From: Halovenus carboxidivorans
GTDB lineage: Archaea; Halobacteriota; Halobacteria; Halobacteriales; Haloarculaceae
DNA length: 34,232 nt
Direction of reading: 5' to 3'
Assembly: GCF_009831575.1 (NCBI RefSeq)
Contig: NZ_WUUT01000009.1
Location: 1 to 34,232 of the forward strand
Below the pieces are notes generated by a model, which saw nothing but the letters and a program-made list of their open reading frames with translations, ran no database searches and was not told where the DNA came from. The stretch's first letter is position 1, and each line of letters begins with the position of its first letter. This document shows, in pieces, positions 3,226 to 5,577 of the stretch. The position numbers and the translations under genes were made by a program.

Positions 3226-3798
3226 ATGGACGTTCGCGCGGAGGCGACGACGATATACCGCGAGACGCTTCCGATTCTCGTCGTCTCTCTCGGCGGCGGC
3301 CTGTTTTCCGGCCTCGTTCTCGAAGGACTGCTCGACAGCGTCGCGGAGTTTCCGGGTCTGCTCGTGATGGTGCCGGTCTTTCTGGCGACCCGCGGGAACG
3401 TCTACGGGGCTCTCGGGGGTCGGATCGCCAGCGGCCTCCACCAGGGGCTGATCGAACCCCGACTCCAGTACGACGAGCGGCTGGTGAACGCCGCGGTCGC
3501 CTCCTTCGTCAACGGGACCGGTATCTCCGTCGTGATCGGCGTCATCACGTGGCTGGTGCTGACGCTGCTGCCGAACTGGGAGCCGGCGATGCTCGTCGAA
3601 CTGGTCGGGATCATGTTCGTCGCGGGCGTACTGACATCGCTTCTCATGATCGTCGGGATGCTCGTGCTCATCTTCGCCGGCTTCAAGTACGGTTACGATC
3701 CCGACAATCTGGTCGGCCCCATCGTGACGACGCTCGGTGATATCTTCGGGATGGTCTTTCTGGTACTGTCGGTCTGGCTGGTCGGGGTGGTCCTCTGA
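3226..3798 (+). CDS. MgtE-like divalent cation transporter, half 1 (membrane domain only)
   Basis: This 190-residue integral membrane protein corresponds to the five-helix channel domain of MgtE/SLC41 Mg2+ transporters. Visible features are a hydrophobic first helix (about 15-35), the segment VPVFLATRGNVYGALGGRIA (about 48-67), and the last helix containing PIVTTLGDIFG. The Asp of that motif (D172) matches the pore Asp of the PxVTTLxDxxG signature in MgtE. The N-terminal superhelical and CBS domains that gate bacterial MgtE are absent. The stop overlaps the start of the next gene in TGATG, implying translational coupling and equal production of the two halves. Substrate (Mg2+ or another divalent ion) is inferred from the family. 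Confidence 0.88.
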   Translation: MDVRAEATTIYRETLPILVVSLGGGLFSGLVLEGLLDSVAEFPGLLVMVPVFLATRGNVYGALGGRIASGLHQGLIEPRLQYDERLVNAAVASFVNGTGISVVIGVITWLVLTLLPNWEPAMLVELVGIMFVAGVLTSLLMIVGMLVLIFAGFKYGYDPDNLVGPIVTTLGDIFGMVFLVLSVWLVGVVL

Positions 3799-4373
3799 TG
3801 AGCGCACGCGGCGATTCGCTCGGCAGTTGGAGGTGGACCCGGATCGTCCGCACGATGTTCCCCCTGTTGGTCGTCCTCTCGGTGATCGTGCTCTGGGCGG
3901 GTCTCACCCTCGAAGGCGCACGGTCGTTGCTCGAAGAATTTGGCATCCTCGCGATCATGGTGCCGACGATGGTCGGGACCGGCGGCAATCTCGGTGCGAC
4001 GCTGAGTTCGCGTCTCTCGACGCGGTTTCACCTCGGGACGACGACGCTCGATCCCCGCGACCGGGTGCTGTGGGCCAACGTACTCGCGATTCTCGCGTTA
4101 GCGGCGTCGATCTTTGCCGCCCTGGCGGTCGGTGCGTATCTGCTCGGACTCGTCGTCGGGTCGACGCTGTCCTTTCCGACGCTGTTTCTCATCTCGATGG
4201 TCAGCGGGATGTCCGTCGCCGTCGTCGCAATCGTGTTCAGTTTCGCCGCGACCTACCTCTCCTATCGCGCCGGAATCGATCCCGACGACACCACGATCCC
4301 CATCGTGACCAACGTCGTCGACGTGTTCGGGATGCTCATCTTTATCGGTGTCTCCACGCTGGTGTTGACCTGA
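3798..4373 (+). CDS. MgtE-like divalent cation transporter, half 2 (membrane domain only)
   Basis: This 191-residue membrane protein is a paralogue of the preceding gene. It carries the parallel motifs VPTMVGTGGNLGATLSSRLS (about 55-74) and PIVTNVVDVFG near the C-terminus, with D175 at the pore position. Helices cover most of the chain and there is no CBS or N domain. The two halves have diverged but keep the same length and motif order, which suggests a heterodimer replacing the homodimer of bacterial MgtE, comparable to the two fused repeats of eukaryotic SLC41. The gene overlaps the previous one by one base and ends one base before the stop of a convergent PhoU/RCK_C gene. Confidence 0.88.
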   Translation: MSARGDSLGSWRWTRIVRTMFPLLVVLSVIVLWAGLTLEGARSLLEEFGILAIMVPTMVGTGGNLGATLSSRLSTRFHLGTTTLDPRDRVLWANVLAILALAASIFAALAVGAYLLGLVVGSTLSFPTLFLISMVSGMSVAVVAIVFSFAATYLSYRAGIDPDDTTIPIVTNVVDVFGMLIFIGVSTLVLT

Positions 4374-4374
4374 G

Positions 4375-5577
4375 TCAGGCGGCCGTTTCGAGCAGTTGTT
4401 CCGTCGCGTTCCACGTCCCGCGGACGATCAACACGTCTCCGGCCGCGACCGTCTCCTCGCCGTCGGGGTAGAAGATCCACTCCCCGTCGGCCTCGTGGAT
4501 CGCGATGATCGAGACCCCCGGTGTCTCGTCGAGAATCGTCCCGACGGTCCGGCCCGCCAGCGAACTGTTCGGCCCGAGTTCGGCCCGCCGAACCGCAACG
4601 TCGCTCTCCCGGACCGACTCGGCGATCACCGGGTGGGTGTCGATATCGCGGAGGATCCCCTCGGTGATCTCCAGCGCGGCGTCGCTGATCAGTTCGCTGC
4701 TGCTCGCCAGCCGGAGCAGTCCCCGTAACGACACCGGGTCGTCGACGTCAGCCGCGGCCTGCAACGCCCACGCTTCGAGCCGAGAGTGGAGGCTGTCGAC
4801 TTCGACTTCGAGGGAGTTCACCTCCTCGGCGAGTTCCTGGTCGTCGAACAGCACGCTCGCGTATGCGAGGTCGACCGCGAGTTCGCTGACGTTTTTCATC
4901 AGGACAATCGTATCGACTGCCCGTTCGAGGTTCCCGAACTCCGCCTCCGTCGCTTCGGGCTGTTCGTATCGCTCCGTAGTGATCCGCTGGTACACCTCGG
5001 CAACGCTGTCCTCGTCTCCCCGCAACAGCAGGCTGTCGCCGACGTCCAGCCGACTCTCGCTGTCCGGATCCAGTTCCCAGCCGTTCTCGCCCCGGATCCC
5101 GATCACCCGGACGCCGGTCTCCGTTTCGAGGTTGATCTCCCCGAGCGTCTTTGCGGCGTAGATCGAGTCCTCGTCCACCGTGGCCCGTTCCAGCACCTCG
5201 ATGGCCTCCGGCAGGGCCGTCTGGATCGACCCCGGCAAGGTCTCCTCGCCGAGAACGAGACCGGCGATATCGCCGGCAGCGTCGCTGATCTTCTCGGCCG
5301 CACCGATGATCCCCAGCACCGGCGCGAGTTGGCGGGCGTCGTCGGGGTTGCGAGTCGCCATCAACATGTTCATCCGCGCCTGCAACTGGAGGAGATCCAT
5401 CTGTTGTTCCAGTTGCAGTACCTCCTCGGCCAGATTCTCGCTGTTGTGCAACAGCGCGGAGTACGCCAGGTCGACGATCAGCTCTGAGCTGTCTTTCATC
5501 GCGCTCAGAAGATCCTTGACGCCGATGGGCTCGTAGGTTACCGTCTCCGAGTCGGCGTCGGCACCGAAAGCGTCCAT
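4375..5577 (-). CDS. PhoU / RCK_C (TrkA-C) tandem-repeat regulator
   Basis: This is a 400-residue soluble protein made of two similar halves. Each half has a PhoU-like helical segment (about 20-110 and 218-310) followed by an RCK_C/TrkA-C ligand-binding domain (about 112-200 and 315-398). The repeat is visible in SSELIVDLAYSALL against VSELAVDLAYASVL, in EKISDAAGDI against ELISDAALEI, and in VIGIRGENGW against IIAIHEADGEW. RCK_C domains bind small ligands and gate ion channels and transporters. The protein has no pore helix of its own, so database names such as potassium channel protein would mislead. It lies tail to tail with the split MgtE pair (1-base gap), and I infer that it may regulate that transporter. 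The start at 5577 is the first methionine with the typical acidic composition; upstream sequence in frame is Arg-rich. Confidence 0.85.
   Translation of the reverse strand: MDAFGADADSETVTYEPIGVKDLLSAMKDSSELIVDLAYSALLHNSENLAEEVLQLEQQMDLLQLQARMNMLMATRNPDDARQLAPVLGIIGAAEKISDAAGDIAGLVLGEETLPGSIQTALPEAIEVLERATVDEDSIYAAKTLGEINLETETGVRVIGIRGENGWELDPDSESRLDVGDSLLLRGDEDSVAEVYQRITTERYEQPEATEAEFGNLERAVDTIVLMKNVSELAVDLAYASVLFDDQELAEEVNSLEVEVDSLHSRLEAWALQAAADVDDPVSLRGLLRLASSSELISDAALEITEGILRDIDTHPVIAESVRESDVAVRRAELGPNSSLAGRTVGTILDETPGVSIIAIHEADGEWIFYPDGEETVAAGDVLIVRGTWNATEQLLETAA

Follow-up and report, generated by a model that had tools for sequence, protein, structure and literature searches.

Genes and domains at the locus

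The window, a stretch of 34,232 nucleotides from Halovenus carboxidivorans, is haloarchaeal chromosome and carries a gene trio: two adjoining genes for MgtE pore domains, MgtE-1 and MgtE-2, and a convergent third gene for a double PhoU-RCK_C protein, whose open reading frame ends one base past the MgtE-2 stop. The features are as follows.

3226..3798, + strand: MgtE-1, CBS-less MgtE pore domain, 190 aa (Pfam PF01769, E 6.8e-22)
3373..3399, + strand: PX6GN signature of MgtE-1, residues 50-58, PVFLATRGN (motif search)
3700..3741, + strand: P(D/A)X4PX6D signature of MgtE-1, residues 159-172 (motif search)
3796..3800, + strand: TGATG start-stop overlap of MgtE-1 and MgtE-2, TGA 3796-3798, ATG 3798-3800 (sequence)
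3798..4373, + strand: MgtE-2, CBS-less MgtE pore domain, 191 aa (Pfam PF01769, E 4.6e-22)
3963..3989, + strand: PX6GN signature of MgtE-2, residues 56-64, PTMVGTGGN (motif search)
4281..4322, + strand: P(D/A)X4PX6D signature of MgtE-2, residues 162-175, holding the second pore Asp
4375..5577, - strand: double PhoU-RCK_C protein, proposed cytosolic regulator, 400 aa (Pfam PhoU twice and TrkA_C twice; relative of PH0236)
4393..4920, - strand: PhoU-RCK_C unit 2, PhoU half at about residues 220-304, RCK_C at about 328-395
4984..5505, - strand: PhoU-RCK_C unit 1, PhoU half at residues 25-106, RCK_C at 130-198

The initial annotation had read the first two genes as encoding the MgtE channel domain alone and their convergent neighbour as two PhoU plus RCK_C units, and both readings are borne out. 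MgtE-1 and MgtE-2 belong to PF01769 (78.5 and 79 bits, against a gathering cut-off of 27.6), each has five transmembrane segments as hydropathy peaks, and a Pfam profile search found neither an N domain nor a CBS domain in either; with 15.4 and 30.1 bits against 232.75 for the equivalog TIGR00400, both lie outside canonical bacterial MgtE. The PX6GN and P(D/A)X4PX6D signatures and the pore Asp are present in both halves. D172 of MgtE-1, invariant in the family alignment, aligns with Asp432 of Thermus thermophilus MgtE (2yvx alignment), which we take, from the MgtE structures, to be a pore-lining residue, and the gate residue Asn424 of bacterial MgtE is replaced in the alignment by Gly and Ile in the two halves. 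The overlap of the MgtE-1 TGA with the next ATG makes translational coupling plausible, so that translation of MgtE-2 may be coupled to that of MgtE-1; such a start-stop overlap of the MgtE genes occurs in 61 of 76 split loci, and is thus not due to chance.

The third protein has the domain order PhoU, TrkA_C, PhoU, TrkA_C (PF01895, E 8e-19; PF02080, E 9e-27). Pfam gave no match to RCK_N (TrkA_N, PF02254), which, with RCK_C present twice, sets the protein apart from the KtrA/TrkA type, and its score against the full-length PhoU equivalog TIGR02135 (31.2 bits vs 130.25) places it outside that group as well. It is a member of the PH0236-type family (E 4.8e-36; TM-score 0.88-0.89 over one unit). 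The AF2 model of the window's protein (pLDDT 85.5, pTM 0.80) was used in a fold search, in which the two PhoU halves jointly matched full-length PhoU proteins over some 300 alignment columns with a TM-score of about 0.6-0.74, and the RCK_C domains matched BusR and KhtT (KhtTU, 7agv/7ahm), the RCK_C of BusR being a sequence match too. PhoU-RCK_C is thus predicted, from this model, to be an intramolecular pseudo-dimer in which two halves make up one PhoU fold, each carrying an RCK_C domain.

The genome of the window also carries a canonical full-length MgtE of 422 aa (L001 622-1890; G000:C4, around 61710) that aligns with the N-CBS-TM architecture of 2yvx, so that the split pair is not its sole MgtE. 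Canonical CBS-MgtE occurs in some other haloarchaea, and in several Natrialbaceae the trio itself has a further neighbour, the gene for a CBS-type MgtE some 370-404 aa long (L138 8638-9849, L152 9027-10142, L154, L157, L183).

Relation to known systems

The MgtE pair shares with bacterial MgtE (T. thermophilus, 2yvx/2zy9; PF01769) a pore domain of five helices, the pore Asp, the signature motifs and, as proposed, the dimeric design, but here the two halves differ and lie on separate chains, N domain, CBS domains and plug helix are missing, and Asn424 is not conserved. SLC41 and the archaeal double-motif MgtE likewise have two MgtE domains and no CBS, with fused forms that contain one extra helix in related methanogens, whereas here two genes encode the domains and PhoU-RCK_C accompanies them. 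Archaeal and metazoan MgtE have been described as double-motif proteins without CBS that may be regulated differently (PMC9276622), and recent reviews regard the regulation of CBS-less MgtE/SLC41 as unresolved (PMC9276622, PMC13022745).

PH0236 of Pyrococcus horikoshii (1vct, 2bkn, 2bko, 2bkp), about 39-44% identical, also combines a PhoU half with RCK_C; it comprises one such unit, whereas the two fused units here are predicted to make the dimer within one chain. Like KtrA, TrkA and KhtT, the RCK regulators of K+ transporters, PhoU-RCK_C is a soluble, RCK_C-bearing protein encoded apart from a membrane transporter, but with a PhoU scaffold in place of RCK_N (TrkA_N) and a putative partner that is MgtE-like. 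Searches for the trio, PH0236 and COG3273/COG1824 found no paper on a partner of PhoU-RCK_C in the open literature, most subscription journals lying outside the search.

Ancient, distinct halves of the MgtE pair and of PhoU-RCK_C

In a tree of 54 MgtE halves and three CBS-MgtE domains, MgtE-1 and the first halves of fused proteins (M1) stand apart from MgtE-2 and the second halves (M2); M2 forms one clade (SH-aLRT 91), while the root within M1 is not fixed. This separation holds across fused and split forms throughout the phylum, and the tree indicates that the MgtE-1/MgtE-2 duplication is old, with the halves already separate before the sampled families split. Such long-standing distinctness speaks for an obligate heterodimer rather than a pair of homodimers, and supports a view of MgtE-1 and MgtE-2 as the two fixed and distinct halves of a single unit. 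The fused double MgtE of related methanogens agrees with this arrangement in having 11 rather than 10 transmembrane segments, the additional one lying between the halves (residues 198-221), since two parallel five-helix halves in a single chain need such a linker helix; an extra helix thus fits a parallel (pseudo)dimer. A phmmer search found no solved structure of a true relative of the fused archaeal MgtE. PhoU-RCK_C presents a parallel case: in a tree of units from across the phylum, unit 1 and unit 2 form separate clades with support of 100 each, from which the duplication within this protein is likewise judged to be old.

Joint presence and absence

PhoU-RCK_C turned up in 115 of the 116 haloarchaea sampled and in 215 of 247 genomes of the phylum; with few exceptions the protein has two units and about 400 aa. 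MgtE pairs proved as widespread in the genome surveys, with the MgtE family present in Haloferax volcanii among others. The trio consists of ordinary core genes of the lineage and represents the standard form in haloarchaea and several methanogen families. Near universality in haloarchaea is also what would lend weight to mere chance neighbourhood, with the co-occurrence of two core gene families carrying no further meaning, a reading that we regard as extremely improbable given the pattern of losses and the recurrence of adjacency in different layouts (see below). All 115 haloarchaea with one family have the other, and G088 lacks both; this genome is 99% complete, and the two sets of genes lie far apart in its genus. 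Among 199 non-haloarchaeal genomes, 161 have both families, 6 PhoU-RCK_C only, 2 the MgtE pair only and 30 neither, an odds ratio of 402 as compared with 3.4 for the control family DAC, where shared ancestry makes the 2x2 counts non-independent and a P value no fair probability. At least three joint absences are separable (G088 from its genus, g73 from the other f24 genera, and g79 from g95 in f25), including some between sister genera, and in f10, f17 and f19 both families are missing throughout the sample. The six genomes with PhoU-RCK_C only are at most about 92% complete, and three of the 30 with neither carry a single MgtE domain. The initial annotation had named genomes in which PhoU-RCK_C routinely occurs without the MgtE pair as a refutation of its proposal; the survey did not refute it, such genomes numbering six among the 199 and none among the 116 haloarchaea. 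Overall, the comparison of genomes argues strongly for a functional link between PhoU-RCK_C and the MgtE pair.

Some genomes depart from the one-to-one pattern. Two MgtE pairs accompany one regulator in the haloarchaea G045-G047, and at L036 (G033) pairs lie on both flanks of PhoU-RCK_C, giving two pairs per regulator. G085 has, besides the canonical copy (L097), another PhoU-RCK_C 14 kb away that is divergent (42% identical) and adjoins an MgtE pair of its own (L098). In G032, PhoU-RCK_C is shortened and the MgtE matches score like the CBS-type class, one being a confirmed CBS-MgtE; at its locus (L096), PhoU-RCK_C ends after unit 1, the split pair is gone and a CBS-MgtE lies directly next, as if by one deletion.

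Gene linkage and alternative partners

The families are retained together across the phylum, but their adjacency is often lost. Among 44 loci from outside the haloarchaea, representing about 40 genera, MgtE genes lie beside PhoU-RCK_C in 24, with 15 in the same-strand order MgtE-1, MgtE-2, PhoU-RCK_C, 8 same-strand with a fused double MgtE and 1 divergent; in the other 20, the stretch read contains no MgtE. In the haloarchaea, where 80 named loci were compared, 31 are linked (28 convergent, as in the closest named relative, Halobacteriaceae bacterium SHR40; 2 same-strand with PhoU-RCK_C first; and 1, L118, in another opposite-strand order) and 49 are without MgtE in the stretch read. Linkage that recurs in several layouts is the pattern of functional partners, and the unlinked copies imply that neither adjacency nor the convergent overlap is essential.

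The frequent loss of linkage would also suit a PhoU-RCK_C that is functionally linked to the pore without being a subunit of it, and that acts indirectly, via expression or via another transporter, for K+ or phosphate. PhoU and RCK_C domains work with many transporters, and the PDB record of PH0236 (1vct) is titled putative potassium channel related protein. Against such indirect action, no DNA-binding domain was found in PhoU-RCK_C by Pfam, its presence and its absence follow those of the MgtE pair very closely, and no other channel or transporter family recurs across lineages beside unlinked PhoU-RCK_C, whose surroundings show synteny only at the level of single lineages. In Haloarcula and relatives (L127, L129, L134, L137, L142, L146), the unlinked PhoU-RCK_C has some 2 kb upstream of it the gene for a TrkA_N/TrkA_C protein that weakly matches an ion channel, an arrangement observed in this group alone.

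Structure prediction is compatible with direct and indirect action alike. At L082, where a fused MgtE and PhoU-RCK_C lie in one frame, the concatenated translation, with intergenic stops read as Gly, was folded as one chain by AF2, and yielded confident domains with no confident interface or relative placement. This result lends some weight to indirect action; yet a pTM of 0.52, about the value for independent parts, from a shallow alignment of 48 rows, few of them paired, is no strong evidence either way on contact. A fold search with this model matched PH0236 and RCK domains, and the matches listed included no structure of an MgtE. With these points taken together, we consider indirect action quite unlikely.

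A probable three-gene transport system

We consider it rather likely that the three genes specify one transport system for Mg2+ (divalent cations), made of a heterodimeric pore and a separate PhoU-RCK_C pseudo-dimer as its regulator. MgtE-1 and MgtE-2 would assemble as a parallel heterodimer of five-helix halves contributing one pore Asp each, the counterpart of the homodimer in bacterial MgtE or of a single double-domain chain of the SLC41 kind, with Mg2+ as the presumed substrate. PhoU-RCK_C would stand in for the missing N and CBS gating domains through direct contact with the pore, opening or closing it upon binding an ion or small molecule. The MgtE pair beside the second PhoU-RCK_C of G085 speaks for such a system; the unlinked state of about half of the loci, the two MgtE pairs per regulator in G045-G047, the replaced Asn424 and the AF2 chain with its lack of a confident interface speak against it. 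The initial proposal of a heterodimeric pore with a separate pseudo-dimeric gate is partly supported, by the distinct halves, the predicted pseudo-dimer and the joint retention and loss, while contact and gating are what we infer; a physical gate by PhoU-RCK_C is plausible.

The same three proteins might instead form an SLC41-like Na+/Mg2+ exchanger or exporter, with PhoU-RCK_C tuning efflux rather than gating a channel. The two-domain, CBS-less make-up is that assigned to Archaea and metazoa (PMC9276622), and metazoan SLC41 members are reported to be Na+/Mg2+ antiporters. RCK_C proteins regulate antiporters as well, as in KhtTU, the fold match noted above, and some haloarchaea, including that of the window, possess a canonical CBS-MgtE besides. 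Against this, both halves retain the pore Asp and the motifs that mark the channel family, and no sequence feature here decides the mode of transport; we regard an exchanger as unlikely, if a serious contender.

The RCK_C domains also raise the question of the ligand. Sensing of c-di-AMP, which would make the system an archaeal c-di-AMP effector for Mg2+ transport, is suggested by the sequence and fold match to BusR RCK_C, by a convergent DAC gene adjoining PhoU-RCK_C in the methanogen genus g85 (G208:C3, G200:C43, G223:C16, G176:C20) and by the commonness of DAC in the phylum. Yet DAC tracks the system only loosely, as seen from its low odds ratio, and in G137 and other complete genomes that possess the system no DAC was detected. 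The c-di-AMP pocket of BusR comprises N157, H160, A164, T165 and P181 (PMC8517857), and a column check on unit 1 found these mostly replaced in 25 sequences, which, together with the phyletic profile, disfavours this ligand to the point of making it very improbable. The ligand is more probably an ion or a different nucleotide.

Implications

An asymmetric MgtE heterodimer under a detachable PhoU-RCK_C may represent a novel kind of gated Mg2+ transporter, serving haloarchaea and numerous methanogens as their main regulated Mg2+ system and offering a prokaryotic model of the CBS-less SLC41, a broader proposal that we advance tentatively, as close to an even call. The regulation of CBS-less MgtE/SLC41 would become directly accessible through a regulator that is a protein of its own and whose gene tracks those of the pore. 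If the regulatory role is true, PH0236, an orphan among solved structures, would gain a role, and PhoU and RCK domains would be tied to divalent cation transport in archaea that face high and changing Mg2+.
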